Of a stretch of DNA of 38,997 nucleotides, positions 1 to 38,997 are shown in pieces. The notes beneath the pieces were generated by a model, which was given only the letters and a program-made list of their open reading frames with translations, was not told the DNA's origin and did not search any database. This DNA comes from a virus. The translations under genes were made by a program, and so were the position numbers. How positions within the stretch are numbered: the first letter of the stretch is position 1; every line of letters begins with the position of its first letter. The DNA lies in IMG/VR virus record IMGVR_UViG_3300031329_000012, positions 1 to 38,997 of that record. The stretch is one strand, 5' to 3'.

Positions 1-708
1 CTACTTAAACAGGCCATTCTTTCGCGCCTGGAATCGCAACGCGTCCGCATAGAACGCGGGCTGCATTCGCTTGGCTTCGTTGAACGCTGGCAATAGCCAA
101 GGGTTCTTATCAATCTTTACTGATGTGTTGGTCAAATCGCGCACCATTCTGAGCTTTGCACGCTTCTTGCTGCCGATAACTTTGAATATCCCCTTACTCT
201 TTTGTAGATCCAGGAACACAAACTTTCTACCTGAGGCCGCTGCCTGCCTGATTGCTATTATATTCCGTTGCTTTTTACTTTGACCTTTTTTGTTATTTTT
301 AGATAGCTTCACTTGAGCCATTGAGTTGGCTTTGCGTGCTAATCGAGTACGCGGTTGTGCATCCATGCCCTGCCCTGCAGCGTATGAAGTCGTTAGGCCA
401 ACGCCTTCCTTACCCTTCTTAGTTTTAATAGCCCCAAACTCCTGATCCTCCATATAATCTGCAATCGAGCCCACTGTTGCCTCTTGCCTTGGTATACGCA
501 ACGTCTTGGCTTGGTCGACGCGTATGCTGTTCACAGTAAACTTATTACGGTTAACCATGCCACTTTTTATGTCTGCTTGGGATATGGCACGGGCGGCAAA
601 TGCTGAGTCGTTCAATGTCTTTTTTGTTGCAAATGGAATTGAGCGTTCGGCAAACTGTTTAAGATCGCCTTGTAGTCTCTTGATGTCACTGTCATTAATT
701 TGGAACAT
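1..708 (-). CDS. Putative virion morphogenesis / minor tail-like protein
   Basis: A complete 235-residue basic protein whose stop codon is the first three bases of the window. The N-terminal half (IPFATKKTLNDSAFAARAIS, then a Lys/Arg-rich stretch) resembles the general layout of phage minor tail or tail-completion proteins of the GpZ type. I cannot place it firmly in a family. A ribosome binding site (GAGGAG, 9-10 nt before ATG) supports the start. No signal peptide or membrane segment is visible. It is separated from the early genes by the repeat-rich gap 709-1198 and points the same way as the late operon. This suggests it is the first gene of the late transcript if the genome is circular. 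The function is an inference; only the reading frame and RBS are directly seen. Confidence 0.6.
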   Translation of the reverse strand: MFQINDSDIKRLQGDLKQFAERSIPFATKKTLNDSAFAARAISQADIKSGMVNRNKFTVNSIRVDQAKTLRIPRQEATVGSIADYMEDQEFGAIKTKKGKEGVGLTTSYAAGQGMDAQPRTRLARKANSMAQVKLSKNNKKGQSKKQRNIIAIRQAAASGRKFVFLDLQKSKGIFKVIGSKKRAKLRMVRDLTNTSVKIDKNPWLLPAFNEAKRMQPAFYADALRFQARKNGLFK

Positions 709-750
709 GTTTTGTCACTCCTCTTTTTCTTATAATACCACACAGAACAC

Positions 751-1036
751 AATACCCCGAACACCCCGAACACCCCACACGTACGGGGTGGCTACAAACC
801 GCTAAAACAAAGGCCTCTAACCCTTTTACCCAATTACCCCGTACTTCTTAACTTAGTAAAAGAATAGATATATAGTACTGTACTGTATGTAGCCGCTTGT
901 AGCCGCTACGAGGCGGACACGGACGGACACGACACCCACACACTAGGCAGCACAGAGTTCGCGAGTTCGGGGTATTTGGGTAACGAGGGGCTTAGACCAG
1001 TAACGGCGGGGGCTGTAGCAATACCCCGAACGGTTT
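751..1036. repeat. Dispersed direct and inverted AATACCCCGAAC motifs
   Basis: The sequence AATACCCCGAAC occurs near 751 and again near 1020. Its inverted form, GTTCGGGGTATT, occurs near 960. A related 9-mer, ACCCCGAAC, is tandemly doubled next to the first copy. The inverted copy continues into TGGGTAA, and TTTTGGGTAAAA near 1051 and the complementary TTTTACCCAATTACCCC near 823 form a second inverted family. Spacing is irregular, so these look like protein binding sites rather than one long hairpin. Confidence 0.5.
889..908. repeat. Two outlying copies of the 10-bp repeat
   Basis: GTAGCCGCTT followed directly by GTAGCCGCTA, then CGAGGCGG. The last copy of the main array (1171-1180) also ends in GCTA. 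The block CGCTACGAGGCGG after this pair recurs inside the terminator hairpin at 1197-1209, so this site looks like a partial duplication of the array-plus-terminator end. Confidence 0.7.
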
Positions 1037-1070
1037 GTGGTTTTGGGTACTTTTGGGTAAAATGCCGCTT

Positions 1071-1180
1071 GTAGCCGCTTGTAGCCGCTTGTAGCCGCTT
1101 GTAGCCGCTTGTAGCCGCTTGTAGCCGCTTGTAGCCGCTTGTAGCCGCTTGTAGCCGCTTGTAGCCGCTTGTAGCCGCTA
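1071..1180. repeat. Tandem array, eleven copies of GTAGCCGCTT
   Basis: Ten exact copies of a 10-bp unit plus a final copy ending in A, preceded by a partial copy (ATGCCGCTT). The period is close to one DNA helical turn, so any bound protein would contact every unit from nearly the same face. The unit length is not a multiple of three and the array lies outside genes. It could be an iteron array at an origin, a regulator binding array, or a slippage-expanded repeat; the sequence alone does not decide. Confidence 0.9.
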
Positions 1181-1188
1181 CTGACAAT

Positions 1189-1213
1189 AAAAAACCCGCT
1201 ACGAGGCGGGCTT
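1189..1213 (-). terminator. Rho-independent terminator of the left early operon
   Basis: On the minus strand a CCCGC/GCGGG stem, extended by a G-T and two A-T pairs, closes a six-base loop and is followed by six T residues. The stop codon TAG of the last early gene (1199-1201) lies inside the hairpin. It would end transcription of the operon that starts near 10176. Confidence 0.75.
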
Positions 1214-1405
1214 AGGGCTTAGAGTCTTAAATATTCGTTTTACTTGGGGGTCATTTTCGCATTGTTCATCAAAATCAGCTCGGCTTTTAAACTCATATTT
1301 AGTTATTCTGCCAATATGCCACTCTCTAAACTCATACGCTTTTGGCCAAAAACTACCACTTATTGGGATACACTCGTATTTATCAAAATCAATCGAATAG
1401 GCCAT
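1199..1405 (-). CDS. Hypothetical protein, 68 aa
   Basis: Last gene of the left early operon. The 68-residue product is aromatic and charged (MAYSIDFDKYECIP...), with no recognised family. Its ATG overlaps the TAA of the preceding gene by one base (TAATG), which implies translational coupling. Its stop codon is embedded in the terminator hairpin. No membrane segment or signal peptide is visible. Confidence 0.7.
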   Translation of the reverse strand: MAYSIDFDKYECIPISGSFWPKAYEFREWHIGRITKYEFKSRADFDEQCENDPQVKRIFKTLSPKPAS

Positions 1406-1665
1406 TATTTCTTAACTCCTAGCCATGGTTCGGGGATTATCCCGTTACATTCACATTCAAAACAGTATTTAGAATAATCTATCCTATCCTTCTCGCTTAA
1501 ATCAATTTCGTACTCTTTACGCAGCCGCTTACGCTCCATATGGTCCTCTATGCTTCGCCGAGTTAGAGCACTCGCTACGTTGGCCGCGCTTCTGTTACGC
1601 TCGTTACGGGCCGCTATTTCCTTCGCGGTTGATTCATCTACTACTTTTTTATACAGTTTTGCCAT
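1405..1665 (-). CDS. Hypothetical protein with C-terminal CxC pair, 86 aa
   Basis: An 86-residue protein with a highly charged, probably helical N-terminal two thirds (Lys/Arg/Glu-rich, about residues 1-65). A short C-terminal segment, YCFECECNGIIPEPW, has three closely spaced cysteines. The family is not recognised. The start overlaps the end of the upstream 56-residue gene by 17 bases and the stop overlaps the next ATG, so it is translated as part of a tight unit. Confidence 0.7.
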   Translation of the reverse strand: MAKLYKKVVDESTAKEIAARNERNRSAANVASALTRRSIEDHMERKRLRKEYEIDLSEKDRIDYSKYCFECECNGIIPEPWLGVKK

Positions 1666-1819
1666 GATAACCGTTTAACTCCTTTAGTAAATCACGTATA
1701 TGCGCCTGCGCTTTCGCCTTCTTAGCGTTCGAATGCGGGTCGTTATCATCAAGCCCCCACCTAAGACCGCACGAACAGGCGTATTCGTCGCCCTCTTGCC
1801 ATGTTTTACAAATAGACAT
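1649..1819 (-). CDS. Small Cys-containing phage protein, 56 aa
   Basis: A 56-codon frame starting MSICKTWQEGDEYACSC. Cysteines at residues 4, 15 and 17, with Trp and Asp-Asp-x-Asp-Pro-His following, resemble the small metal-binding proteins common in phage early regions. A strong RBS (GGAGG, 8 nt before ATG) precedes it. It overlaps the next gene by 17 bases. A stem-loop and promoter-like boxes lie just upstream. It fills an otherwise empty gap in the operon, which supports it being real. The function is unknown. Confidence 0.65.
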   Translation of the reverse strand: MSICKTWQEGDEYACSCGLRWGLDDNDPHSNAKKAKAQAHIRDLLKELNGYHGKTV

Positions 1820-1873
1820 ACCACAACCCTCCGTTAAGCGCGCACCGTTGTATAGTGCGCCCCGGATGAATGC

Positions 1874-1902
1874 ATAATAATGAGCCTAAACTCTTGCTGC
1901 AA
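1874..1902 (-). promoter_or_regulatory. Candidate internal sigma70-like promoter
   Basis: Reading the minus strand: TTGCAG, a 17-bp spacer, then TATTAT. It lies in the 98-bp gap before the last three genes of the left operon, and GCGCAC/GTGCGC arms (about 1841-1862) can form a hairpin in the leader. The match is moderate, so this is a candidate only. Confidence 0.35.
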
Positions 1903-1917
1903 TACCACATATGTTAT

Positions 1918-2271
1918 TTACTCCGTTTCGTCTGGTAATTTGATCCACTCACGATGCTGCACCGTGTGTAAAGGAAATACATTTTCTCCGAAATGAACCA
2001 TCCAAGCGCCGTTTCGGTTAATATCTATTGTGCAGAACTCAGCGCTATCACAGGGCGCGTATATGTACTTCCACATGTATTGACCCGGAACTAATGGTTT
2101 CGCTTTATCCCATGGCCAGCTGAATGGCTGTTTTTTAGCTATGTATGACTCAAGCGTGCGCTCATGCGTCTCTAAATTACCCAACAATAAATACGCTTCG
2201 GCGATAGCTCGGTCGTTTGCTAGTTTGAAATTTTGTAACTCTGCAAGTGTTAATTTATTAAATGCGTGCAT
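1918..2271 (-). CDS. Hypothetical protein, 117 aa
   Basis: A 117-residue protein. The N-terminal 45 residues are helical (LTLAELQNFKLANDRAIAEA). The C-terminal half is rich in Trp, Tyr and Pro, suggesting a small beta domain. The family is not recognised. The RBS AGGAG lies 8 nt before the ATG. It is followed by the longest gap in this part of the operon, which contains a promoter candidate. Confidence 0.7.
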   Translation of the reverse strand: MHAFNKLTLAELQNFKLANDRAIAEAYLLLGNLETHERTLESYIAKKQPFSWPWDKAKPLVPGQYMWKYIYAPCDSAEFCTIDINRNGAWMVHFGENVFPLHTVQHREWIKLPDETE

Positions 2272-2276
2272 GTTAT

Positions 2277-2462
2277 TTACTCCTGTTCTTGTAAGGCACT
2301 TAAAGCCAATTTTATTTGGTCACGTAGTTCACTTTCTGATAAACCCCAATTGCGCATGTCCAAAATATCAACAGGCTCTTTTAAAGCAATTTCAAGGTCT
2401 TCAATTGTGTTTATTTCAAAACATGCCTCTGCGAATGTGTTTTCTTGAATTTCGATAGTCAT
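2277..2462 (-). CDS. Small acidic hypothetical protein, 61 aa
   Basis: A 61-residue acidic protein (MTIEIQENTFAEACFEINTI...) that is probably mostly helical. The start is preceded by a purine-rich RBS (GAAGAG). It lies 5 bases upstream of the 117-residue gene and 16 bases after its predecessor. Small acidic early proteins are often phage inhibitors of host factors, but nothing in this sequence shows such a role. Confidence 0.65.
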   Translation of the reverse strand: MTIEIQENTFAEACFEINTIEDLEIALKEPVDILDMRNWGLSESELRDQIKLALSALQEQE

Positions 2463-2478
2463 AATGTTTTCTCTTCGG

Positions 2479-2763
2479 TTATTTGTTGGCTTGATACATG
2501 TTTAACTGAGCAATAAAACTGTTGCTGTTTGGCATTTTTAACTCCGTGACTAAAGAGCCAATCATCATCATCAACTCTTCATTGTCGGTACCGTTGAAAT
2601 CAACAACTTTTTGAAACTGTTCAATGCTGGCATCACACATTGCATCGCGCTTTGGGTCTCCATTTTTCTTTTCTTGTCTTTTTGCAATACTCTTCAAGGC
2701 ATCAGCTTTAAAACGTTCAATGTGAGTCATGACTTCGGTGTAGTTTGTTTGCGTTGCGTTCAT
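2479..2763 (-). CDS. Hypothetical protein, 94 aa
   Basis: A 94-residue, mostly helical protein (THIERFKADALKSIAKRQEK near the N-terminus). The RBS GGAAG lies shortly before the ATG. The family is not recognised and no membrane segments are seen. An 86-bp AT-rich gap (2764-2849) precedes it; I find no convincing promoter or terminator there. Confidence 0.65.
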   Translation of the reverse strand: MNATQTNYTEVMTHIERFKADALKSIAKRQEKKNGDPKRDAMCDASIEQFQKVVDFNGTDNEELMMMIGSLVTELKMPNSNSFIAQLNMYQANK

Positions 2764-2849
2764 AATATTTCTTCCGGTTGGTTGCTGTGTTTTGCTTCGA
2801 TGGGTTAACCTTACGCTATATTGACGACGCCGCCAACATAAAATAGTAA

Positions 2850-3029
2850 TTAATTTTTAAGCGTTGTTAAATGCCACGAATCGCAGTGACGGCAGTCGTA
2901 AGCGCGTAGCTTGCGCCCCGACTTTTTGCTGCGCCCGAGCTTTTTGGTGTAATGCTTTCGCTGAGTTTGTATGTAAGTGGCGTGTTCAAGCGCTTCGCTT
3001 TTAGTTGGGAATGGTATCTTTTGGCACAT
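2850..3029 (-). CDS. Small zinc-finger-like protein, 59 aa
   Basis: A 59-codon frame starting MCQKIPFPTKSEALEHATYI, with a basic middle and a C-terminal motif YDCRHCDSWHLTT. The Cys-x2-Cys followed by Trp-His is characteristic of a widespread family of small phage proteins with a single putative zinc knuckle. The start lies two bases past the stop of the primase-helicase, with AAGGT as RBS, so the genes are coupled. A competing frame starting at 3034 encodes a low-complexity peptide without the motif and is rejected. Nucleic-acid binding is inferred. Confidence 0.75.
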   Translation of the reverse strand: MCQKIPFPTKSEALEHATYIQTQRKHYTKKLGRSKKSGRKLRAYDCRHCDSWHLTTLKN

Positions 3030-3030
3030 A

Positions 3031-5649
3031 TCATTTTACCTTAAAAACCTCCGCAGCGTTACCAGTGGGTACTATCTGGGCGCCCTGCGCTTCTTGATAG
3101 ACTCGCGCCACTTCTGCAGCGCCTTGAATATTGCAGTTTATGTGGCCCCTACGAACAAAGAGGCGCGGCTTTTTATTATCATCCATGGGTATGGAATTAT
3201 TAACGCGCCCATCAATTAGCGCTGGATGCCACACGTAGCCGAGTGATTCGAGTAGGTCCTTACGCTTGTTATGTGGGATAGTACGTGTGGCATGTATGGC
3301 GTATAGCAGGCGCTCAACGGCCACAGAGGAGACCCATCCACCCGCAAAGCCCGGCCGCCCTTCTTCGATTGCTTCTAGTATCTCTTGCTCTACACCGCCA
3401 AGCGACGCGAATATCGCTTCGTCTGTGCTAGAAGTCTGCGGCGCTCTATGGCATGCACCCGCTGGGTTTAATTCATTAGGTATAGCGTAATCCGCCAGGT
3501 AATTGGCGACAATCGCATAACCGTCACCTTTGAGCCAAGTGTATATTTTTGGAAAATAAGACCCGTCCATACCGTCGCGTATGATGTCAGTGTCTAACTG
3601 CTGGGCGCAATAAAAAACCGCAAAGCGACGGTCGTTTCTTGTTTTACGTATGCCATCCTTATAATTGCTATTTAGTATAAAATTGGCAAAATTATCCCCC
3701 ATTACCTGCGCGACTTGCATGGCGCGCTTAGCTAATCGGTCGTTTGTTATCATTGGTTTCAGAACTTCGATTATCTCTTTTTTATGATCAGGAACGTATA
3801 CGTCTTCTATTCCTATGAACAATTTATTAAATAGCCATTCGTTGAATTTTTCTGATATTTCGCTGGCCGGTGGCAAGTGCGTGTATTTATCCCCGATAGC
3901 GAACGCCACACACCTCGTAAACAGCGTTTTACCATTGCCCTCAACGCCTTGTATCAGTGGCGCCCATTGAAATTTAATGCCTTTGTGCTGTATGCACGCG
4001 GCCATGTATGCTAGTAGTATTCCGCGATCATGCTCACTTGGTAGCACTTTGGCCAGATGTAGCAAAAACGGCGCGGGATCCCCTTCAAGGCGCTTAGTTT
4101 CTATGGGTATATAGGCGTTAAGTAGCAGCCTTCCCTCCTCTTTAAGTAAAGCGCCCGGTGCTTCAAGTGGCCTAAACGCCATGGCTTCGGCTTTGGGATA
4201 CCTAACGATTTGTGACTCTGTGAACGCTTCCCAGGCCTTGCGAGTGACTTTATCCCCACCATCGTCCAGTTGAAAGGTGTAACCACCGTATGTGGCGTTA
4301 AATTGTTCAGATTTAAGCAGGGCACCGTTAGGTGTGAAAACTTTATGTATTTCTTGTATATAAACGCAACCCTTAAAATATTCTACTTGCTGAGTTGCGC
4401 CTAGATATTGATAACCAGATAATATCTCCGGTTCTGTTTTATCTTCGGCCAATGGCGCGGCTGCGGTTTCTACTGGTGTCAACGTTTTACGCAATTCTTC
4501 GGTGGTTTTGTCTTTGTTATCTAGCCAAAATTTGGCGGTAGGCACTTTGCAAAACATTTCTATTAATTCAACTTCGCCGAAACATTCTTGTAACTTTTGC
4601 GCTCTGACGTTGACAGCGTAGTCTCTTTGTGGGTCACTGTTTGCGCGTAGTTTTACAGCGCCAAATTGTTGCGCTATAGCGTCATCTACTTGCTGGACTG
4701 AGTAAACAACGTCTTGAAGCGATACGGCCCGCGTGATAGTCCTCATAAGGTAATCTTCGCGGTCCCATTTGTCGCGCACCATGGCCGACATTTCCATGAG
4801 CTTTTGAATGCGTTCGCAATTATTACCCGTCCAAAATGCTAAATGTTGGGCGAGGGCTGCATCAGCACTACTGCCGTCATAAGCGCGCTGACCTTCTGTG
4901 TCTGGATATGCTTTTCCAAGGGCGTCCTCGTCACATTCCCATAAGTGTTTGAAAGTGGCCCTATCGCCAAAAATAGCACCACCACCACCCGTCTTAAGCG
5001 CGCGTTCGATAAGTTCGTCGTCGTCGTCTGTACCCGTCCAACTTTCCACCGGTTCGGTTGTCCAGTCTTGGTCCTTAGTTGCTGATTTAGGCGCGAAGTA
5101 GCTCTCTATGACATCGCGTAAATGCGCAGAGTGGTCATAACCGGCGGACCCAATAGTATTATCACCTGTTAAGGCAACGAAGCGGCCTTCTGTGTAGAGC
5201 TCTAAGCCTAACGGTATGTTTTTACATGAGTGATCGGGTGGCGCGCCTGAGTATTGACTGAATACGTGCAAACCGCGGCCCGATTGAGACACCTCAACCG
5301 CTGCGCTAGGCAAACGCGCTAATATATCCATTGCAACGCTAGACCAGGTTATATTGTCCGCGTTTAAACATTTATCTAAGTCCACAAAGAAAAAAGGGTC
5401 ATTAGCAGTAAATAGGAACCCCACGCCATACTCAGGTCCGCAAAGCGCAGCCATTGCAATGGCACTGCCGGCGTCTGTCGTACTGCTTGGGTCTTTTTGC
5501 CAGTCAGCGCCTTTCGGGTAAGACAAGCATGTATGCGGGCTTATGGGAAACTTTTTATTGCTTTTAGTATCTTCATCCCAAACTAACTTATACAAACAAA
5601 ACTGCTTATACGCTGCTAGGGGCTTCAGCGCCTCGGGTAAATTTTGCAT
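3031..5649 (-). CDS. Primase-helicase (prim-pol-like N-terminus, D5-type helicase C-terminus)
   Basis: An 872-residue replication protein. The N-terminal region carries prim-pol-type signatures: FFFVDLDKC at about residues 86-94 and SGRGLHVF at about 122-130, as in phage and plasmid bifunctional primase/polymerase domains. The C-terminal part has a P-loop (GVEGNGKT, about 567-574) and a Walker B-like LFIGIEDVY (about 608-616), as in superfamily 3 D5-type phage helicases. The start is at an ATG three bases after the stop codon of the tandem-HTH regulator. It presumably opens the replication fork and primes synthesis for the family A polymerase of the opposite operon. The two-domain assignment is solid by motif; exact domain borders are not. 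Confidence 0.85.
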   Translation of the reverse strand: MQNLPEALKPLAAYKQFCLYKLVWDEDTKSNKKFPISPHTCLSYPKGADWQKDPSSTTDAGSAIAMAALCGPEYGVGFLFTANDPFFFVDLDKCLNADNITWSSVAMDILARLPSAAVEVSQSGRGLHVFSQYSGAPPDHSCKNIPLGLELYTEGRFVALTGDNTIGSAGYDHSAHLRDVIESYFAPKSATKDQDWTTEPVESWTGTDDDDELIERALKTGGGGAIFGDRATFKHLWECDEDALGKAYPDTEGQRAYDGSSADAALAQHLAFWTGNNCERIQKLMEMSAMVRDKWDREDYLMRTITRAVSLQDVVYSVQQVDDAIAQQFGAVKLRANSDPQRDYAVNVRAQKLQECFGEVELIEMFCKVPTAKFWLDNKDKTTEELRKTLTPVETAAAPLAEDKTEPEILSGYQYLGATQQVEYFKGCVYIQEIHKVFTPNGALLKSEQFNATYGGYTFQLDDGGDKVTRKAWEAFTESQIVRYPKAEAMAFRPLEAPGALLKEEGRLLLNAYIPIETKRLEGDPAPFLLHLAKVLPSEHDRGILLAYMAACIQHKGIKFQWAPLIQGVEGNGKTLFTRCVAFAIGDKYTHLPPASEISEKFNEWLFNKLFIGIEDVYVPDHKKEIIEVLKPMITNDRLAKRAMQVAQVMGDNFANFILNSNYKDGIRKTRNDRRFAVFYCAQQLDTDIIRDGMDGSYFPKIYTWLKGDGYAIVANYLADYAIPNELNPAGACHRAPQTSSTDEAIFASLGGVEQEILEAIEEGRPGFAGGWVSSVAVERLLYAIHATRTIPHNKRKDLLESLGYVWHPALIDGRVNNSIPMDDNKKPRLFVRRGHINCNIQGAAEVARVYQEAQGAQIVPTGNAAEVFKVK

Positions 5650-5650
5650 A

Positions 5651-6154
5651 TTACACCCCCAATAGTTTAATCGCTGCTTCCTTCAATTCAGGGTCCGCTT
5701 TTTTAGCGTGCTCATCCCCGTTTGCTAGCCCCTGCGCTATTACTTCGGTAATGCCCTGTTTTATGGCCCGGCGCATGATAGCCGTCTTAAGCTGCCCCAT
5801 AGTGCCAAAATACCGCGTTACCAGTCCCATGGATACGCCCGCCCCCTCTGCGACTTTGTCCCGAGTAATGCGCGTATAACCCAGCTCCCGCGACATTAGT
5901 ACCGCAATATTCAATATGTGGTCTTTGCGTAGCGCTGGGTTGGCACGCGTCTTGCTTACGGTGTACGAAAATTCTGGAATGTTTTCGAGCTTTAACTCTT
6001 CAACAAAATCAGAAAAATTGCACCCCATAATATGCGGGAATGAGCCATCCGGGATACCCGAACGCTCACATAATTGGCGGCGAGACAAATTGATTAAACC
6101 CTCACCTTTGACCATGCAAACAGCCACTTTTTTAACTTTGTCACGTTGATTCAT
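5651..6154 (-). CDS. Regulator with two tandem TetR-type HTH domains
   Basis: A 167-residue protein with two TetR-family helix-turn-helix units. The first is at about residues 8-53 (LSRRQLCERSGIPDGSF). The second is at about 77-126 (ITRDKVAEGAGVSMGLVTRYF). The second is the better match, with the usual Gly-Val-Ser and Arg-Tyr-Phe pattern. Classical TetR proteins have one such unit and a long ligand-binding domain; here only about 40 residues follow the second HTH. A single chain might therefore bind an operator as a pseudo-dimer. RBS GAGG lies 10 nt before the ATG. It is co-transcribed with the early genes, so autoregulation at 10160-10215 is plausible but unproven. Confidence 0.8.
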   Translation of the reverse strand: MNQRDKVKKVAVCMVKGEGLINLSRRQLCERSGIPDGSFPHIMGCNFSDFVEELKLENIPEFSYTVSKTRANPALRKDHILNIAVLMSRELGYTRITRDKVAEGAGVSMGLVTRYFGTMGQLKTAIMRRAIKQGITEVIAQGLANGDEHAKKADPELKEAAIKLLGV

Positions 6155-6186
6155 TTCTTTACTTCCTCGTTATTATTACGCTGATA

Positions 6187-6399
6187 TTAACCCGTAGTGA
6201 CGCAGTCGTCAACACACAATAGAAAATCACTGAATATAACTCGATCATCCCCCTGGCCATAGATGAGCGTTTTCTTTGTGCGCGGTAAATCCGGCGGCCC
6301 CATAATGGCGACCACATCATCGAGGTTTTTAAATCCGGAATCCTGAGAAGGCCCGGTGCTTTGCTTATTAGCGTTATTGAACGGCGTTGCGTAAATCAT
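6187..6399 (-). CDS. Hypothetical protein, 70 aa
   Basis: I choose the ATG at 6399 because it forms an ATGA overlap with the stop of the SLOG gene; a further ATG 15 bases upstream lacks that arrangement. The 70-residue product begins MIYATPFNNANKQ and has a Pro-rich centre (MGPPDLPRTKK). The family is not recognised. Tight coupling to the SLOG and VRR-NUC genes suggests a shared process. Confidence 0.65.
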   Translation of the reverse strand: MIYATPFNNANKQSTGPSQDSGFKNLDDVVAIMGPPDLPRTKKTLIYGQGDDRVIFSDFLLCVDDCVTTG

Positions 6400-6734
6400 G
6401 CGTAAGGCCCCCATACAGTTATATTATTATCTTTACATTTTGCGACCATGTCCGCAGTGCCGCTGTTGCCAGGCATAGCCAAACAATAATCGGGTTTCAA
6501 TAACAACATGGCAGAATTACGAAGGCCACCCGCCGCTTTATAATAATTTGTCCACAGCGCCGGAACCTCCGCCCAATGTACGCCGTTCGAAGAGGCCCAG
6601 CTGCGCGCTAAACTGTCCGCGCCTTTTGCCCCGCCTTCGATTATTATCTCCGGCACGAACGGAAGTTCACGCATAGCCGCGCATAGGGCCTCGTAATCAT
6701 TAAAGAAACGGCCACCACATATTAATAAGATCAT
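6396..6734 (-). CDS. SLOG-superfamily protein (DUF2493/YspA-like)
   Basis: A 112-residue protein with the signature of the DUF2493 branch of the SLOG (SMF/DprA-LOG) fold. GGRFFNDYEAL is near the N-terminus, EGGAKGADSLA at about residues 34-44, and a late PGNSGTADM loop follows. Such Rossmann-like domains bind nucleotides or nucleotide-derived ligands. The length is that of a minimal single domain. The gene overlaps both neighbours by ATGA junctions, between a VRR-NUC nuclease and a 70-residue unknown. Its ligand and role cannot be read from the sequence. Confidence 0.8.
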   Translation of the reverse strand: MILLICGGRFFNDYEALCAAMRELPFVPEIIIEGGAKGADSLARSWASSNGVHWAEVPALWTNYYKAAGGLRNSAMLLLKPDYCLAMPGNSGTADMVAKCKDNNITVWGPYA

Positions 6735-7204
6735 AATGTACCTTCACTATTGGCAAACGCCGCGTTACCACCCAATGACGCGACTAAATTTAAAAAATTA
6801 AGCTGAGCTACTTCTCTATCCGTACCTGAATACGTCCAAACGGATTCTTTAACCTCCCTCGCTAAAAACTGGCCAATTATAGAACCTACGTGGTTTTGAG
6901 TTATCAAGAGCGGGCTAATGCCTATTAAATCACTTGACTTTAAAACCGCGTTCATTTGCTTCGACTCATTACAAAGACCGTATCGGAAAAAGCTACCGTC
7001 CTCAGTGTAAGCCCCGCCCACATTATTACGCCACAAGCGCGCCCCCTTGCTACTCGCCTCAATACGTATCTGCGATTGTACGGCGCTTTCGCTCCGGCCT
7101 TCCTGGCGTTCGGGATCGGTTTTAGCCAGTCCAAACTCGCGGCGTAAGTCCTCAACCGCAGCCATAGGAACACCCCATTTTATCGCCCATTGTATTAAAT
7201 TCAT
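6731..7204 (-). CDS. VRR-NUC domain nuclease
   Basis: A 157-residue protein. The core SAVQSQIRIEASSKGARLWR, then GLCNESKQMNAVLKSSDLIGI, then FLAREVKES gives the E...D...ExK order of VRR-NUC (PD-(D/E)XK) nucleases, which act on branched DNA or on replication intermediates. The ATG at 7204 is preferred because it overlaps the upstream stop as ATGA; an in-frame ATG at 7216 is less likely. In phage replication modules these stand-alone VRR-NUC proteins are usually thought to resolve junctions. All expected catalytic residues appear present. Confidence 0.8.
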   Translation of the reverse strand: MNLIQWAIKWGVPMAAVEDLRREFGLAKTDPERQEGRSESAVQSQIRIEASSKGARLWRNNVGGAYTEDGSFFRYGLCNESKQMNAVLKSSDLIGISPLLITQNHVGSIIGQFLAREVKESVWTYSGTDREVAQLNFLNLVASLGGNAAFANSEGTL

Positions 7205-7479
7205 AAAACACCCCACGGCTTTTCGCGACCATAAGCACGGGTCACTATCTCCGTTGTGCCATCACTATAGTAAAAGGTCCATTGCTTTACACCCTCGTCG
7301 GGAAAATACGCGGCTCTTTCGTCAAAGCAAACCCGCTGCGTTTCGTTATCGCCTAATAACCACGATATCGGCGCCCGTCGTACATATTCGTGCATTACTC
7401 TTCGGGCTAACTGCGGGTTGGATTCTAAAAACCGCCGCTTAAGCCCTAGTTCTTTCGCGCTTTCGTCTAAGTCTTTCAT
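7201..7479 (-). CDS. Hypothetical protein, 92 aa
   Basis: The likely start is the ATG at 7479 (MKDLDESAKELGLK), four bases after the stop of the upstream gene, with a G-rich stretch as possible RBS. A longer reading frame to 7575 exists, but it would overlap the upstream gene heavily. The product has a helical N-terminal half and a beta-rich, aromatic C-terminal half (QWTFYYSDGTTEIVTRAYG). The family is not recognised. Confidence 0.65.
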   Translation of the reverse strand: MKDLDESAKELGLKRRFLESNPQLARRVMHEYVRRAPISWLLGDNETQRVCFDERAAYFPDEGVKQWTFYYSDGTTEIVTRAYGREKPWGVL

Positions 7480-7483
7480 TGTT

Positions 7484-7837
7484 TTAACCCCCCAGTTGAT
7501 ACCTTGCATTGTAAGCACAATCCTCAGCATCAGAATATAACGCTTCCAGAGCATTACTGATCCGCTTATTTGCACTAGCTAACTTAGCTTCTAGTTTTTT
7601 AACGGCCCTACGTTTTTTAGTAGTTTTAACTGTCCTACGTTTCTCGGTATCCAACTGCACATTTAAGGAACCAATAGTTTTAGACAATTGGACTCTGAAT
7701 TGCATTTCTTGAACTATTGATTCCTTTGCACTATCTAACTGATTTTTTAGCTCTAAAATTTGCTGTTCTGCTCCGCTTCTTGCGCCACAACACGGGCAGT
7801 TATACCCATCTAAATCATTCATAAGTTTAGTAGCCAT
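7484..7837 (-). CDS. Coiled-coil protein with N-terminal CxxC, 117 aa
   Basis: The start at ATG 7837 (MATKLMNDLDGYNCPCCGAR) is preferred over 7846, because GAGGT precedes it at good spacing and it then lies just beyond the helicase stop. A CPCC/CGAR motif at about residues 14-19 may form half of a zinc site. Residues 20-95 form a strongly heptad-like coiled coil with many Lys/Arg/Glu, and the segment ends with a Tyr-rich tail. Function unknown; a dimeric accessory replication protein is a guess. Confidence 0.7.
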   Translation of the reverse strand: MATKLMNDLDGYNCPCCGARSGAEQQILELKNQLDSAKESIVQEMQFRVQLSKTIGSLNVQLDTEKRRTVKTTKKRRAVKKLEAKLASANKRISNALEALYSDAEDCAYNARYQLGG

Positions 7838-7838
7838 T

Positions 7839-9614
7839 TTAAACACCTCTTTCTATTTGTTCGTTAATCTTATCGGTTAGCTCTGCAGCGTCCCCGGCGT
7901 TAAATGTTTGGGCGGTCAATACGTCGACGCCAAACTTAAAATAAAACCGCCTAAAACTCTCGCTATCAGGTCGGCCTGCTGCTCGTTGGTGCCCGGCCCA
8001 CCAACTCATTGCATCACGTAGTATAAGCTGTGCGGGTAGCCTATCAATGTGGTTTTGTATTTCGACTTCTTGTTTAGCAACGAAGCGCTTAACGTTAGCT
8101 AACTGATTAATTAACGGTACGTGCTTGCTGACCAATTCTTGCCTATATAATTCTTTATCGGGCAGTGAATTTTTAAAATCATCAGCACTTATGTGGACAT
8201 CATCGACCTCGCCCCGCATAGCGGCCAGGACTTCGGCGTCCAACTCTATTAGATCGCCGTCGACTTCTTCCATACTTTTACGCGATACGGGTTTATTTTT
8301 ATCGCCACAAACAGGGCAAACGGTATGAATGCGGGCGTAAACAGCGTCACATATGACGCCAGTAACTTCATTCATAATTAAACAGGTGCGCGTTGGTATG
8401 GTATCAGAGTCTAACGAGCTCCCTTTTTTATCTCGCCTGTCGAGTGTCCACTCCCGGCGCGCATCTGGCAGGCCGTGGCGCTGCACGTTGCCAACATGGT
8501 CGATTATAAGCGCAAACTTTTTACCCTCTAACAAACGCAATGGCCGCCCAAACTGCTGCACATAAAGCGCGTATGATTCGGTAGCCCGACCCATACTTAC
8601 GACCTCCATAGCGGGCACGTCCACCCCTTCGCCAAGTAAATCCACATTGACAATCTGCATCAACTCGCGGCGTTTAAACCGCTGCATTATAGCGATCCGT
8701 TCTTCGTTCGGCGTGTTAGCGCTAATGGCTGCCGCTGGCACGCCTGCCGCGTTAAACTTTGCGGCTACTTCGACGGCGGTTTCAACGCTATCGGTAAACG
8801 TAACCCCTAATTTACCCGGTGCTATGCGCAAGTAATGCTTAACAATGTCGCCTGTTATTTGTGATTTACGCCCGGCCGCTTTCAGTTTAGCTTTTCCAAA
8901 ATCGCCATCCCCGACTATTGCGTCTTGACCCGGGCGCACAAAGTCCGAAGGCGGCGCAAATATGCGGTATTCCGTTAAGTACCCCATATTTATCAATTCT
9001 CGCGCAGTAGGCCCTAATACCATTATATCGAATAAGCCATCTACGTGGCGCCCTAACCCCCTACCATCGGCACGCAAGGGCGTAGCAGTGACGCCTAGCC
9101 CCTTGGCGTTCGGAAACATGGCAAACGCTGTGCCCCATTTATTATTTTTTAATACGTGGTGCGCCTCGTCTTGAACGCATAGAGTGACAGAGTTAAGCCA
9201 GGCGCCTAGCTCTTTGGTACGACGGACCAACGTATCGACGCCTGCCACTGCACAAGTGGAATTAGGATCATAATAGCTGGCCCCCAGTTCCATCATGTGC
9301 AAATTGACGCATAACTTAACCACCGATTTAGGGCCTATTATGCGGTGACGGACTTTGTCGCGTGCTAGCGCTAGTGATATCTGACTGACTAACTCTTGGC
9401 GGTGCGCAATAGCGCAGCTGGCCCCTTTGTGGTCGTGAATGATATCAGAAAACAACACTGTTTTACCCGCGCCCGTTGGCAGCACGGCGAGCACATTAGG
9501 CGCACCGTTGGCCCAGCCGCCATATATTTCCGACTTGGCTTTCGCTTGATACGGCCGTAAATGCTGCGACCGTCCGGCGACTGCTACCGCTACGCGTGTC
9601 TGTACTGGGATCAT
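7839..9614 (-). CDS. Superfamily 2 DNA helicase (DEAD/DEAH, type III restriction-like)
   Basis: A 591-residue helicase. Visible motifs are LPTGAGKT (about residues 45-52, motif I), QDEAHH (148-153, motif II), TATPLRADG (176-184, motif III region) and QQFGRPLRL (about 360, motif VI). A CPVCGD element at about residues 435-440, with an upstream cysteine, may form a zinc site. About 150 residues of helical C-terminal extension follow. This domain arrangement is common to phage replicative or recombination helicases related to UvsW and type III Res subunits. The ATG overlaps the stop of the HNH gene by one base. Together with the primase-helicase it makes two helicases in one operon. Confidence 0.9.
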   Translation of the reverse strand: MIPVQTRVAVAVAGRSQHLRPYQAKAKSEIYGGWANGAPNVLAVLPTGAGKTVLFSDIIHDHKGASCAIAHRQELVSQISLALARDKVRHRIIGPKSVVKLCVNLHMMELGASYYDPNSTCAVAGVDTLVRRTKELGAWLNSVTLCVQDEAHHVLKNNKWGTAFAMFPNAKGLGVTATPLRADGRGLGRHVDGLFDIMVLGPTARELINMGYLTEYRIFAPPSDFVRPGQDAIVGDGDFGKAKLKAAGRKSQITGDIVKHYLRIAPGKLGVTFTDSVETAVEVAAKFNAAGVPAAAISANTPNEERIAIMQRFKRRELMQIVNVDLLGEGVDVPAMEVVSMGRATESYALYVQQFGRPLRLLEGKKFALIIDHVGNVQRHGLPDARREWTLDRRDKKGSSLDSDTIPTRTCLIMNEVTGVICDAVYARIHTVCPVCGDKNKPVSRKSMEEVDGDLIELDAEVLAAMRGEVDDVHISADDFKNSLPDKELYRQELVSKHVPLINQLANVKRFVAKQEVEIQNHIDRLPAQLILRDAMSWWAGHQRAAGRPDSESFRRFYFKFGVDVLTAQTFNAGDAAELTDKINEQIERGV

Positions 9615-10135
9615 TATTTAACTTCGCCCCATTTACGGCCCGCTTTGATGTGCGATATCAATGAATAGTGCACATTAAATTGGATCGCTATATCCCTTTG
9701 CTTTCTTCCCTCTAACAACTGTTTTTTGATTTCCCTAACCTGCTCATTAGTAAGTAAAGACAGCCTATTAGCCTCACCCGTGGGCGTAACGGACAAGCCA
9801 GTTTCACGTGCATGTCTATTGTTTTCAGCGGAAGTAACCCATTCTAGGTTGGAGTGGTTATTGTTTTGCTTATCGCCATCCATGTGATTGACGAAGGGCT
9901 TATTTAACGGATTCGATATAAACGTATTAGCTACTAGCCTATGAACGTACGAATTCTTTTGAAACCCGTTTTCTCTAAAAGCTAAATACACGTATCCATC
10001 CTTATTTATGGAAGCCTTACGAATAAAATCAGTAAATTTGCGGCCTCCTAAAGTTATTTCTTTTTGCCTAACTTGGCCCCGCCTATTAATTTCTGCTGCA
10101 GGGCCTATGACATTCAATTTTGTCCACTCAGTCAC
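9614..10135 (-). CDS. HNH homing-type endonuclease (NUMOD4-HNH-HTH)
   Basis: The start is the GTG at 10135, because a near-perfect AAGGAGG lies 5 bases upstream; a longer frame reaches a TTG at 10213 but would lack an RBS and run through the promoter region. The 173-residue product has a NUMOD4-like N-terminus (EWTKLNVIGPAAEINRRGQV), an HNH core (VNHMDGDKQNNNHSNLEWV) and a C-terminal helix-turn-helix of the NUMOD1 type (QRDIAIQFNVHYSLISHIKAG). Free-standing HNH genes of this type are selfish elements that cut phage genomes lacking them. This one is first in the left operon and overlaps the helicase start by one base. Confidence 0.88.
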   Translation of the reverse strand: MTEWTKLNVIGPAAEINRRGQVRQKEITLGGRKFTDFIRKASINKDGYVYLAFRENGFQKNSYVHRLVANTFISNPLNKPFVNHMDGDKQNNNHSNLEWVTSAENNRHARETGLSVTPTGEANRLSLLTNEQVREIKKQLLEGRKQRDIAIQFNVHYSLISHIKAGRKWGEVK

Positions 10136-10168
10136 GATCGCCTCCTTAAAAAATATATGATTATAGTG

Positions 10169-10197
10169 TTGACAGGTCAAAAATATAACGCTAATCT
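10169..10197 (+). promoter_or_regulatory. Sigma70-like promoter of the right early operon
   Basis: TTGACA (10169-10174), a 17-bp spacer, then TAATCT (10192-10197). Transcription would start near 10204, giving a leader of about 30 bases before the ATG at 10234 with AGGA as RBS. The -35 box lies in a palindrome, TTGAC-AG-GTCAA (10169-10180), which could be an operator. Confidence 0.75.
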
Positions 10198-10210
10198 CTT
10201 TCACTGTCAA
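10182..10210 (-). promoter_or_regulatory. Sigma70-like promoter of the left early operon
   Basis: Reading the minus strand: TTGACA (10210-10205), a 17-bp spacer, TATATT (10187-10182). Transcription would start near 10176, about 40 bases before the GTG at 10135 and its AAGGAGG. It occupies almost the same DNA as the rightward promoter but faces the opposite way. Confidence 0.75.
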
Positions 10211-10233
10211 CAACTAAACAGGATTTAAAAAAC

Positions 10234-11253
10234 ATGAAATCAATTAGTATCACAATACCATTAACGCACTCAGCACTAACCCGCGCATCGGATATGCTGC
10301 ATGGCTTGGCGATAGACATAACCCACGAAAACCCGATGACTAATATGACTCGCGACGAATATGTGAACGGGACGGCAAGAGGTGATGGTCAAAACAACGA
10401 GGGTGACTTAGTCGACAACTCTAGCGATACGGCTCCCATGTTTAGCCCCGAAGAGATAGAGCAGGCCACATACCACGCTAATAACGAATCCGAGGGCCGA
10501 ACCGCTTGGCAAGACCACATAGATGAGCAAGCAGAAGCGGCGGAGGTATTCGCTAGCCCAAAAACGGGGCCTGCGCTTACTGTTACGGAGAAATCGGGCC
10601 CTGTCGCTGCATCTGGCCCGGAGGTATTCGCCGACCCAAAGACGACGGCCGGTGCGCCTGTTGCGGAAGTGCCACAAGCCACGGATCAGACGCAGCCACA
10701 TGTGACAAATGCAACGGAAACCACCCCGGAATTTGTGGATTCTGCAAAGGAAGCGGGCGAGGCGTCATCTGGGGTTGAATTAGCCGACGGCATACCGTGG
10801 GATAATAGAATACACGGAAGCGGTCGCGGTAAACTAGCCAAAGCACCTCACGGCTGGAAGAAAAAGCGCAACGTAGACCCTGATCTCGTTATAGAAGTCG
10901 AGGCGGAATTACGCGCGGCTATGTCTGCGGGTACTGCGCCGGTAGTAAGTAGGGATATTAAAAGCGTTAAAGTAGCAGGGCGCGATTTTGTAGTCGCGGC
11001 AGAAACCGGGGCTGAGCGTAAGCTCTTCGGATTTCAAAACGAACCAGCACCAGCACCAGCACCAGCACCAGCACCAGCACCAGCACCAGAAGAGGTGACT
11101 ACATTCCCGGCGCTCATGGCGGCTTGCACTGCCAAAGGTCTGACAAACGAGCAAGTCCTCGCGGCTGTTAATTTCATCGGGCTTAGTTCAATACCGTTAT
11201 TAGCGGCGCGCCCTGATCTTATTCCGGCCGTAGCGCAAAGCCTGGGGGTGTAA
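10234..11253 (+). CDS. Early protein with (PA)n linker and C-terminal helical domain
   Basis: A 339-residue acidic protein, first in the right operon. Residues 1-200 are low-complexity and contain two related segments (VFASPKTGPALTV and VFADPKTTAGAPV, about residues 110-140). Residues 205-265 form a basic then mixed region (HGWKKKRNVDPDLVIEVEAE). Residues 271-287 are a Pro-Ala linker. The last 50 residues form a helical domain (LTNEQVLAAVNFIGL). The family is not recognised. The linker and small C-terminal domain repeat the architecture of the SSB-like protein two genes downstream, so a role in assembling replication proteins is likely, by inference. Confidence 0.7.
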   Translation: MKSISITIPLTHSALTRASDMLHGLAIDITHENPMTNMTRDEYVNGTARGDGQNNEGDLVDNSSDTAPMFSPEEIEQATYHANNESEGRTAWQDHIDEQAEAAEVFASPKTGPALTVTEKSGPVAASGPEVFADPKTTAGAPVAEVPQATDQTQPHVTNATETTPEFVDSAKEAGEASSGVELADGIPWDNRIHGSGRGKLAKAPHGWKKKRNVDPDLVIEVEAELRAAMSAGTAPVVSRDIKSVKVAGRDFVVAAETGAERKLFGFQNEPAPAPAPAPAPAPAPEEVTTFPALMAACTAKGLTNEQVLAAVNFIGLSSIPLLAARPDLIPAVAQSLGV

Positions 11254-11254
11254 T

Positions 11255-12424
11255 ATGGGGCATTCCATTCTACCCCCCTCTTCGGCGCATATTTGGGGTA
11301 AGCCTGACGGCTGTACTGGCTGGGTGCAAATGTCGCAGACCTACCCTGACGACGAAGAGTCTCAAGCCTCGCGCGAAGGTACAGCGGCGCATGAGATAGG
11401 CGCGCAGCTAATAACGGACGCGAAAACTAATCGAGTGCAAAATCATTTGGCGAGTGATTGGGTCGGGATAACTGCATCGAACGGCGTACTATTTACCGAG
11501 GAAATGTTCGACTCTGCTAAGGAATACGCCGACGACGTCATTACCGTAATGCGCAAAACGGGCATATTTGGCGGCGAGCATTTGAGAATAGAACAACGCG
11601 TCGAGATCCCAAAGGTTCACGAAATTAATTGGGGCACGCCTGACTGTTCCGTCTATCACGCCGCAGGTAATGCGCTTTATTTGTGGGATTATAAGCATGG
11701 TTTTGAAGTCGTCGAAGCGTTCGAAAACTGGCAGGGCATTGACTACCTAGCAGGGTTGTTAGATTTGCACGGAATTGATGGCCGCACAGACCAAAGAACT
11801 AAGGTTTATCTACGCATAGCCCAGCCGCGAGCCTTTCACCGCGAAGGTACAATTCGCGAATGGGTAATAACTGCTAGCGACTTACGGGCTTATTTTAATA
11901 CGCTCAATGCTAACGCTCACGAAGCACTAAGCCCTAACGCTAAGTTTCGTACCGGTAGCCACTGCAAACACTGCACGGGTCGCCAAGCTTGCCCCGCCGC
12001 ACTTAAAGCCGGTCTCGGTATGTATGAGGCTGTTAGTAAACCCGTACCGGTAGAATTGTCGCCCGACGCGCTTGGCCTGCAATTGTCAATTGTTAAGCGC
12101 GCTCGTAAACAGTTGGAATATTTAGAATCGGGATTTGAGACACAAGCCAGCGCGCTAATAAAAAAGGGAACTATGGTTCCGGGTTGGTCCGTTGAACAAA
12201 AAATCGGCCGTCAGAAGTGGGACAAGCCCGTCGAAGAAGTCATCGCGCTTGGTGATATGCTTAATTTAGATTTACGCAAAGCACCCGACGCGATAACACC
12301 GATACAAGCTAAAAAATTAGGTATTGACGATGCCGTCATTATGGCATACAGTACACACCCTAGAACCGGGCTAGAGATAGTTCCGGATAATGGAAATAAA
12401 GCAAAACAGGTATTTAAAAAATGA
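11255..12424 (+). CDS. Cas4/AddB-like PD-(D/E)XK nuclease with Fe-S cysteines (DUF2800-like)
   Basis: A 389-residue protein. A conserved His-containing N-terminal segment (EGTAAHEIG, about residues 41-49), GTPD (127-130) and DYKHG (145-149) form the nuclease core. Cys20 plus a C-x2-C-x5-C set at 237, 240 and 246 gives the one-plus-three cysteine layout of Cas4/AddB iron-sulfur nucleases. The family pairs with DUF2815-like SSBs and family A polymerases in many phages, which fits the order here. It probably processes DNA ends during replication or recombination. The start follows the upstream stop by one base and the stop overlaps the next ATG. Confidence 0.85.
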   Translation: MGHSILPPSSAHIWGKPDGCTGWVQMSQTYPDDEESQASREGTAAHEIGAQLITDAKTNRVQNHLASDWVGITASNGVLFTEEMFDSAKEYADDVITVMRKTGIFGGEHLRIEQRVEIPKVHEINWGTPDCSVYHAAGNALYLWDYKHGFEVVEAFENWQGIDYLAGLLDLHGIDGRTDQRTKVYLRIAQPRAFHREGTIREWVITASDLRAYFNTLNANAHEALSPNAKFRTGSHCKHCTGRQACPAALKAGLGMYEAVSKPVPVELSPDALGLQLSIVKRARKQLEYLESGFETQASALIKKGTMVPGWSVEQKIGRQKWDKPVEEVIALGDMLNLDLRKAPDAITPIQAKKLGIDDAVIMAYSTHPRTGLEIVPDNGNKAKQVFKK

Positions 12425-13323
12425 CATCAATTACGAATATACTAACCCCCGTCGGTCGCCTAGTACAAGGCGATTGCTTCGAAGCACAAACAAAGGACGC
12501 TGAGGGCAACCCTTTAACTATTAAATTCGGCGCCAATGCCGGACAGCCTCGGGTAGATTTTTACATGGGAATTGCTATTCCTAAAACTGATCCAGGCTGG
12601 GCTGAAACATGGGGCCTTATACATGGGGTGGCCCGCGCGTCCGCTCCGTCGCTTTTTGACGCAGCCGGAAACTGTATTAGTCCGAAATTCGCGTTTAAAA
12701 TAATTGACGGCGATAGTGTGGTGCCTAATACAAAAGGCAAAAAGCCATGCGAGCGCGAAGGTTTTCCAGGTAACTGGATATTAAACTTTAGTGGCGGATT
12801 TGCGCCCAAGTGCTACACCGCCAACGGCGCCGCGCTAATAACCGATCCGCTAATGCTCAAGCGTGGCTATTATGTTCGGATCTATGGCAGCGTTAAGGGC
12901 AACGGTTCAACGCAGCAACCAGGTATATTTTTAAACCACACAATGGTCGAATTAGTTGGTTACGGTGAAGAAATTGTGATTGGTCAAAGCGGCGACGATG
13001 TTTTCGGTGCGTCACCCGCTGCAGCACTGCCCGCCGGTGCGAGCGCTACGCCTTTGGCTACGTCCGCACCGTTAGCACAAGCCCCCGCACAAGGTCCGGC
13101 AATGGCTCCACCAAGCAACGTTGCACCTGCCCCAGACTTTTTAGAGGGGCCAGCACCCGCGCCAGCACCCGCGCCAGCACCCGCGCCAGCACCAGCACCA
13201 GCACCGGCACCAGCACCGGCCGAGGTAAAATATCTTGACGCAAACGGGACCCCGTGGACTAGCGAGCAATTGCTCTCGTTTAATTACACCGCCGCGCAAA
13301 TAGAAGCATTACCGCGCGCGTAG
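12421..13323 (+). CDS. ssDNA-binding protein (DUF2815-like) with long (PA)n linker
   Basis: A 300-residue protein. Residues 1-190 match the beta-rich DUF2815/phage SSB pattern (TPVGRLVQGDCFEAQ near the start, then FAFKIIDGD and MLKRGYYVRIYGSV). Residues about 195-270 are Ala/Pro-rich, ending in a pure Pro-Ala run (about 243-268). The last 30 residues (LDANGTPWTSEQLLSFNY...) form a short helical tail, possibly an interaction peptide like the C-terminal tip of bacterial SSB. The ATG overlaps the nuclease stop as ATGA. It presumably coats single strands at the phage fork. Confidence 0.82.
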   Translation: MTSITNILTPVGRLVQGDCFEAQTKDAEGNPLTIKFGANAGQPRVDFYMGIAIPKTDPGWAETWGLIHGVARASAPSLFDAAGNCISPKFAFKIIDGDSVVPNTKGKKPCEREGFPGNWILNFSGGFAPKCYTANGAALITDPLMLKRGYYVRIYGSVKGNGSTQQPGIFLNHTMVELVGYGEEIVIGQSGDDVFGASPAAALPAGASATPLATSAPLAQAPAQGPAMAPPSNVAPAPDFLEGPAPAPAPAPAPAPAPAPAPAPAPAEVKYLDANGTPWTSEQLLSFNYTAAQIEALPRA

Positions 13324-13336
13324 TTTCTCCGACCTT

Positions 13337-13360
13337 GGCCCGCTTCGGCGGGTCCTTTTT
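13337..13360 (+). terminator. Rho-independent terminator after the SSB gene
   Basis: A GGCCCGC/GCGGGTCC stem with a TTCG loop and a one-base bulge, followed by five T residues. It lies between the SSB-like gene and the small genes leading to the polymerase. No promoter is visible after it, so it probably attenuates rather than stops transcription, giving more SSB than polymerase. Confidence 0.8.
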
Positions 13361-13376
13361 AATTTAGAGGTGGCAC

Positions 13377-13619
13377 ATGTATTTCTACAAAAAAGGCGGT
13401 AAACAGATCCTTGATTTACGCGGGGACCTAATATTAACCCACAACGACGGACTGATAAAAGGCCGCGTAAAAAGCGCAGCGCCCGGCAGCGTTAAAAATG
13501 CAAAGTATATAGTGGCCCGAAACATGAGCTTTATAAGCAAAATAAAGGCCACATTTCACGTTATTAGGTTTATATTCGGCTCAAGCCAAGCGCTAGACGC
13601 TGACAAAGAAGGGCTTTAA
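13377..13619 (+). CDS. Hypothetical basic protein, 80 aa
   Basis: An 80-residue, strongly basic protein (MYFYKKGGKQILDLRGDLIL...), possibly beta-rich in its first half, with a hydrophobic stretch near FHVIRFIFG (about residues 59-67). RBS GAGG lies 6-7 nt before the ATG. The family is not recognised. It follows the terminator and runs into the next gene with a two-base gap. Confidence 0.65.
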   Translation: MYFYKKGGKQILDLRGDLILTHNDGLIKGRVKSAAPGSVKNAKYIVARNMSFISKIKATFHVIRFIFGSSQALDADKEGL

Positions 13620-13621
13620 TT

Positions 13622-13993
13622 ATGGCTGTTGATGTGTCCCTGGTGTGCGCCGAACTCGAGGCTATAGCCTGCATTTTTGCTGCATTTGAAAACCCAGATA
13701 CAGCCGTCAAGTTGTTGGGCGACAAAGCTTGTTTTGAACAAGGTGATTTAGTTTACAGAACATCCCTTTTTAAGTGTAAATTGAAGCTGGTTATGCACCC
13801 GAGCGAGCAGGGCATACTTGATAGGGTTGAAAGGTTAAAAAAGACCGCTCGAAAACAATCGCGAGCTTTTGGTGGTAATAAAGCACGGAAAAGATCGTTA
13901 AATCGTGCCCGGTACAGTAAAGCCGTGGCCCAATCTTTTTTAGACGATGGCGAGATTGAGAATCATAAAACTTACGTCGAGTCCTACACATGA
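13622..13993 (+). CDS. Hypothetical protein upstream of DNA polymerase, 123 aa
   Basis: A 123-residue protein. The N-terminal half is mixed hydrophobic with three cysteines (VCAELEAIACIFAAFENP); the C-terminal half is very basic (KKTARKQSRAFGGNKARKR), fitting nucleic-acid contact. Its stop overlaps the ATG of DNA polymerase (ATGA), so the two are co-translated. The family is not recognised; a polymerase accessory role is inferred from coupling only. Confidence 0.65.
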   Translation: MAVDVSLVCAELEAIACIFAAFENPDTAVKLLGDKACFEQGDLVYRTSLFKCKLKLVMHPSEQGILDRVERLKKTARKQSRAFGGNKARKRSLNRARYSKAVAQSFLDDGEIENHKTYVESYT

Positions 13994-16212: not shown

Positions 16213-16214
16213 AA

Positions 16215-16370
16215 ATGAGTAAAGTCCGAACTGGAAAATTAAATAAGCCATTAAGAAAGTTTGCAGACGCGGCGGTAGATGATCGCGGCTTTCATAAAAT
16301 ACCGCCTGACCGTGAGGATATGGCCGCCTTTCAAATTAGCGCTAGAACTAAAACACGTCGGCACGGTTGA
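16215..16370 (+). CDS. Small basic protein at end of replication operon, 51 aa
   Basis: A 51-codon frame two bases after the polymerase stop, with GGAAGGA as RBS. The product (MSKVRTGKLNKPLRKFADAA..., ending RTKTRRHG) is basic and without a recognised family. It ends exactly at the base before the stop codon of the convergent late operon, so no intergenic space remains. The tight packing and good RBS support it. Confidence 0.6.
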   Translation: MSKVRTGKLNKPLRKFADAAVDDRGFHKIPPDREDMAAFQISARTKTRRHG

Positions 16371-16673: not shown

Positions 16674-16732
16674 GCCGTTGTTTCCTTTAGTAATTGTTTA
16701 GAGTGTACGCGAAATTATTGTCGCGGTCTAAC

Positions 16733-17667: not shown

Positions 17668-17684
17668 TATAGCCCGCCTAATGT

Positions 17685-17756
17685 TTAACCGTCATAATCT
17701 GGATGATTAAAACCCATGCGTTTAAGTGCTTCTAGTGTTGATTTTGAGTATGTCAT
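17685..17756 (-). CDS. Possible 23-residue microprotein
   Basis: A 24-codon frame, MTYSKSTLEALKRMGFNHPD plus three residues, whose ATG overlaps the tail-spike stop codon (TAATG) and which fills most of the gap to the muramidase. AGGA lies 11 bases upstream. It is too short to judge by composition and may be chance. Confidence 0.3.
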   Translation of the reverse strand: MTYSKSTLEALKRMGFNHPDYDG

Positions 17757-38992: not shown

Positions 38993-38997
38993 CGATT

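Follow-up and report, generated by a model that had tools for sequence, protein, structure and literature searches.

The window, i.e. the whole stretch of DNA analysed here, comprises the 38,997 nucleotides of the IMG/VR virus record IMGVR_UViG_3300031329_000012. It contains a 10-bp tandem array located in a 490-bp non-coding region (709-1198) that lies between two minus-strand elements, the terminator of an early operon and a late-type promoter. The replication genes, on the minus strand and running from about 9.6 kb towards 1.2 kb, code for a helicase, a tandem helix-turn-helix (HTH) protein, a primase-polymerase and small ORFs. Past the terminator, the order is array (cluster A), iterons, a second repeat cluster (cluster B), an AT-rich block, the promoter-like sequence GTGTGGTATTAT, which is identical in all eight aligned relatives, and the first late gene. 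A preliminary description of this DNA had placed the array in the only long gene-free region; the array does lie in non-coding DNA, and the bounds of this region were corrected to 709-1198. The features are as follows:

1 to 708, minus strand: first late gene, phrog_4688 (annotated as minor tail protein), used as anchor for comparing relatives
709 to 760, minus strand: late-type promoter region with GTGTGGTATTAT, iterons at the would-be -35 and then a Shine-Dalgarno sequence, from the alignment of relatives
753-762, 762-771, 835-844 and 1022-1031, inverted at 965-974, no strand: TACCCC/CGGGGTA iterons, from the motif scan
842 to 886, no strand: AT-rich block, candidate melting region, from nearest-neighbour energy
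889 to 909, no strand: cluster B, two units plus palindrome, from repeat finding and motif scan
975 to 1060, plus strand: TTTGGGTA motifs at 975, 1042 and 1052, from the motif scan
1064 to 1181, no strand: cluster A, the 10-bp array plus partial unit and palindrome, from repeat finding, motif scan and shuffles
1192 to 1213, minus strand: predicted intrinsic terminator closing the early operon, from terminator prediction
1199 to 1405, minus strand: ORF call of 68 aa with its stop inside the terminator, bounding the non-coding region
3031 to 5649, minus strand: primase-polymerase/helicase, a relative of NrS-1 polymerase, from profile and structure matches
5651 to 6154, minus strand: tandem HTH protein, candidate regulator or initiator, from sequence and structure prediction

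The portal gene is found at the contig end opposite to the array. Since the terminase of SppYZU01, the closest cultured phage, is placed between the same two genes (late gene and portal), and none was assigned among the window proteins scanned (a subset of the ORFs), the contig looks incomplete at its packaging end, with the terminase apparently missing. The contig itself stops with the late-gene stop codon at position 1 and the start of the portal gene at 38992-38997. Neither megablast of positions 1-20000 against a phages collection nor a plasmid blastn search with the region gave a match, and distant blastn of 700-1500 against phages returned short, weak matches only.

Cluster A consists of 11 units of GTAGCCGCT(T) starting at 1071, 1081 and so forth up to 1171 without a single indel, just as the preliminary description had it. 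The full units are preceded by a partial one from 1064, and the TRF call covers 1064-1179 with a period of 10, 11.6 copies and 100% matches. The final unit ends with A and is followed by C, giving an 11-bp odd palindrome, GTAGCCGCTAC (GTAGC-C-GCTAC), at 1171-1181. The two additional copies noted earlier at 889-908 are exact, and this cluster B, too, closes with GTAGCCGCTAC (899-909). When the whole 38,997-bp record was scanned in both orientations, GTAGCCGCTTGTAGCCGCT with up to two mismatches was matched 11 times, always on the plus strand and within clusters A and B, and the longest run of GTAGCCGCTT was zero in 500 dinucleotide shuffles of 709-1404. The AT-rich block that had been described beside the extra copies adjoins the two-copy site, but not the array. 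A coding origin of the repeat was rejected, as 10 bp is not a multiple of three and an ORF at 906-1187 is a by-product.

Copy number in relatives had been put forward as a check on the array, and the array was indeed found in close relatives, though with neither a constant number nor a constant orientation of the units. L095 shares 97.8% identity with the window over the 360 bp preceding the late gene, yet its array has five copies and is inverted; L096 carries about 10 copies in the orientation of the window, one of them mutated, and L097 about five inverted ones. Copy numbers in these four sequences range from 5 to 11, with inversion in two (L013, L014 and L043 are different excerpts from the contigs counted here as L095 to L097). 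The layout of two clusters with about 172 bp between them is kept in all four. In an alignment of eight relatives, in which a base opposite a gap counted as mismatch, the array had the lowest mean pairwise identity of all segments (0.36 vs. 0.48-0.77). It is absent from many relatives with a related primase, while the TACCC motifs are more widely kept, and SppYZU01 has a related region with no cluster. The retention of the palindrome upon inversion fits a symmetric site.

The comparison across lineages was based on stretches upstream of the late gene from viral contigs, the window, SppYZU01 and two MAG contigs, the only relatives detected in a scan of bacterial genomes. A length filter reduced the 72 stretches to 69, of which 62 were non-redundant. 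With a motif cluster defined as a pair of motifs 8-60 bp apart, clusters were present in 25 of the 62 stretches compared to a mean of 0.75 and a maximum of 4 in 20 rounds of dinucleotide shuffling; the strict motif gave clusters in 19 of the 62 and in none of the shuffles. The centre-to-centre spacings group at 10-11, 19-21, 30-31 and 40 bp, and the resultant length R at a period of 10.5 bp was 0.65 for all spacings (n=46, 25 lineages) and 0.66 for spacings above 15 bp (n=23, 16 lineages, p=1e-4). For two control motifs, TACCC/GGGTA and CCGC/GCGG, R was 0.08 each above 15 bp; including the short spacings, the controls also departed from uniformity (R of 0.25 and 0.21), so the spacings above 15 bp are the fair test. 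As the motif was defined from the window, this test was not blind, and the lineages share ancestry. Upon collapse of clades at 75%/65% protein identity, the p-values for spacings above 15 bp were 0.012/0.025 for the loose and 0.003/0.010 for the strict motif, and at 55% identity none of the four tests was significant (p=0.055-0.31). The whole-turn spacing expected of phased operators is, accordingly, seen beyond 15 bp and no longer significant at the 55% collapse. Within these bounds, the helical phasing proposed in the preliminary description is supported by the relatives, whose spacings group at multiples of about 10.5 bp whereas those of the two controls beyond 15 bp do not. Spacings out of phase (13, 14, 15, 23, 29, 33, 36, 43 and 46 bp) occur as well. 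Other lineages have tandem arrays close to this position, with units of 11, 20 and 31 bp (L098), 11 bp (L104), 20 bp (L112), 21 bp (L163), 30 bp (L149) and 40 bp (L135); the exceptions are 7 bp (L101), 9 and 14 bp (L137) and 33 bp (L123). Phasing of the distance between clusters A and B (R of about 0.6) was calculated from 12 hand-chosen distances with no null and was set aside.

The explanation that we favour, and for which we see an even chance, is that of lineage-variable, helically phased candidate protein-binding sites beside a probable origin and late promoter. Judging from the sequence comparisons, the array would be a cluster of odd-palindromic sites (GTAGC-S-GCTAC) that has expanded and is recognised by a putative DNA-binding protein, which probably binds to several of them on the same helix face and may do so cooperatively. 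The two clusters, A with the early terminator and the iterons on either side and B next to the AT-rich block, would flank a compact control region that probably includes the replication origin as well as the late promoter, and this region probably controls replication or gene switching. As the units are tandem and nearly self-complementary, copies would be gained, lost and inverted easily; expansion and inversion would be tolerated because the site is symmetric, and the palindromic core and the whole-turn spacing, but nothing else, appear to be kept. Phage and bacterial regulators are known to use phased multi-operator arrays with palindromic sites on one helix face. The clusters resemble these in having palindromic sites on one helix face and two places that could allow looping, but differ from them in that the number and orientation of sites vary between close relatives and that the binding protein is putative. 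Such an array would be a control element whose sequence, copy number and orientation drift while its helical phase is kept, in a widespread and mostly uncultured group of phages with primase-polymerase replication.

The main and serious rival, which we regard as possible but rather unlikely, is a near-neutral minisatellite, in which a GC-rich motif of the terminator stem was expanded by slippage in a permissive non-coding gap. Variable-number tandem repeats consist of perfect short tandem units in variable copy number, and the array is alike in both respects. Copy number varies freely among the close relatives (11, 10, 5 and about 5 in the window, L096, L095 and L097, respectively, with inversion), the array is the least conserved segment, and the terminator stem and cluster B (903-916) have the 14-mer CCGCTACGAGGCGG in common. 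The multiples of 10-11 bp could, on this account, stem from an ancestral unit of this length of which the longer units are multiples; descent from such units can give the observed spacings in lineages that are not independent, and 5 of 28 virtual mid-sites resemble decayed units, compared to 0.9% of background positions. Many spacers of 19-21 bp, however, bear no likeness to the motif and are not obviously decayed units. Rather than being unconstrained between lineages, most units measure 10, 11, 20, 21, 30 or 40 bp and contain the motif core, and separate lineages have built units of these lengths with unrelated spacers. Unlike in variable-number tandem repeats, whole helical turns are preferred in the unit lengths and spacings of the relatives, and distant lineages have the core motif as well; both the cluster frequency far above that of the shuffles and the lack of phasing of the two control motifs in the same stretches beyond 15 bp speak against a minisatellite.

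Alternatively, clusters A and B could be phased sites of an undescribed architectural protein that loops out the iteron segment of about 170 bp and thereby switches the phage from early transcription to replication or late expression. In this case, which we consider doubtful, the sites would need symmetry and whole-turn spacing alone, so that the array could expand or flip with its function kept.

The preliminary description had also regarded the array as the best origin candidate in the window. For the region, this proposal stands: it is a credible origin candidate, the case for which is carried by the melting stretch, the TACCC iterons and the nearby NrS-1-like primase-polymerase, and not by the array. 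By nearest-neighbour energy, positions 842-886 are less stable than any other 45 bp of the window; with stretches of 60 bp the region ranks fourth, and with 100 bp it ranks lower. A high AT content is common in intergenic regions in any case. Outside the array, 372 bp of the region contain TACCC/GGGTA eight times (mean of 2.5 and maximum of 7 in shuffles) and TTTGGGTA three times, the latter vs. once in the other 38.5 kb. The primase-polymerase gene is located 1.8 kb upstream of the region in the same operon direction, and its product matches PF22763 (E=9e-18) and PDB 6a9w (E=5e-19) and has the expected helix bundle. If the region is the origin, the TACCC and TTTGGGTA motifs would be better candidates for initiator sites than the array. 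At 8500-9000 of L070, TACCACTA takes the place of the iterons, which suggests a changed preference of a putative binding protein.

The array as the origin itself, with its units as iterons for a phage initiator and the AT-rich block as melting site, appears improbable to us. Iteron origins, such as the lambda ori with its O protein and those of RepA plasmids, combine tandem short sites, an AT-rich melting block and nearby replication genes. All three are found here, together with the NrS-1-like primase-polymerase and two flanking clusters, but the AT-rich block adjoins cluster B and is about 180 bp away from the array. Repeats of an iteron origin would be kept in relatives with related replication proteins, whereas the array is missing from relatives that share the TACCC iterons and have a related primase, its copy number and orientation change, and other motifs of the region are better conserved. 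The cumulative GC skew, which had been named as a check, shows no turn at the array; it follows the gene strand and was discarded as origin evidence. NrS-1 polymerase is reported to recognise TTTGGTTA, for which a role in the site-specific start of replication was suggested, and GTG serves too, so that TTTGGTTA is not exclusive (PMC8718748). The window resembles the NrS-1 phage in its homologous primase-polymerase and in TTTGGGTA, which is one mismatch away from TTTGGTTA; exact TTTGGTTA is absent from the region, and nothing ties the 10-bp array to priming. The pRN1 replicon is described as having an operon of regulator and primase-polymerase, followed by non-coding DNA that contains the origin, in the form of a stem-loop of about 100 nt (PMC4234260). 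The window would share this arrangement if its region is the origin; the array DNA, however, folds no better than shuffles. Excerpts of the literature on iteron origins, helical phasing in phages and SppYZU01/VP16T (including PMC4234260 and PMC5371815) do not describe the repeat, those retrieved for phages with primase-polymerase replication contain no mapped origin, and among the matches listed for the motif letters, the titles and beginnings of abstracts all belong to unrelated fields.

A packaging signal, i.e. a site for the small subunit of the terminase, is very unlikely: contigs of several relatives end at GATTCnnCCG shortly past the late gene, with CGTAGCSGC/CGAAGCSGC units 10-11 bp apart just before that end in L096, L097, L098 and L106, but the 0.7-kb late gene separates the array from this end, the spacings on the cos side are 23-24 bp in L099, L101, L102 and L104, and the window is without packaging end and terminase. 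We give hardly any credence to an array acting as RNA, in which read-through early transcripts would form a long hairpin blocking entry into the late operon: minus-strand RNA of 1064-1181 folds far better than shuffles (z=-4.57), but the predicted terminator precedes the array and the late promoter follows it, an inverted array, as seen in relatives, would yield the opposite strand, the plus strand as DNA does not fold better than shuffles (z=0.64), and the Rfam search returned one chance-level match below its gathering score and no family reaching this score.

With regard to candidate proteins, the 167-aa product of 5651-6154 is a conserved neighbour of the primase in many phages, with its gene on the upstream side. 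The structure prediction (mean pLDDT 88.9, pTM 0.58) has two HTH-like helical domains with a linker of lower certainty between them, and the second half of the protein matches structures of the TetR family. All 24 members examined contain TetR_N at E 0.01, with the copy of the window below Pfam's own cut-off. A ligand-binding domain is not evident in this TetR-like protein with two HTH domains. Among the loci tested, the gene is present in all 15 with a cluster and in 8 of 10 without, so the protein may bind the iterons instead of the array, and it was rejected as a demonstrated binder. No gene tracked the presence of the cluster at these loci except for a small unassigned ORF that is confounded by phylogeny.

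Repeats were also seen elsewhere. In L096 (3208-3290), L097, L098 and L106, motif-like units lie past the late gene and are closely followed by a conserved, A-rich stretch containing GGTACTG and by the end of the genome. In the window, 26812-27702 holds about 10 copies of a 72-bp tandem repeat (85% matches) inside a minus-strand ORF (26704-28302), short ACCAGC repeats occur inside an ORF at 11043-11089, and short CCAGCACCCGC repeats are found in an ORF at 13149-13217, near the end of the gene for a gp2.5-like ssDNA-binding protein.
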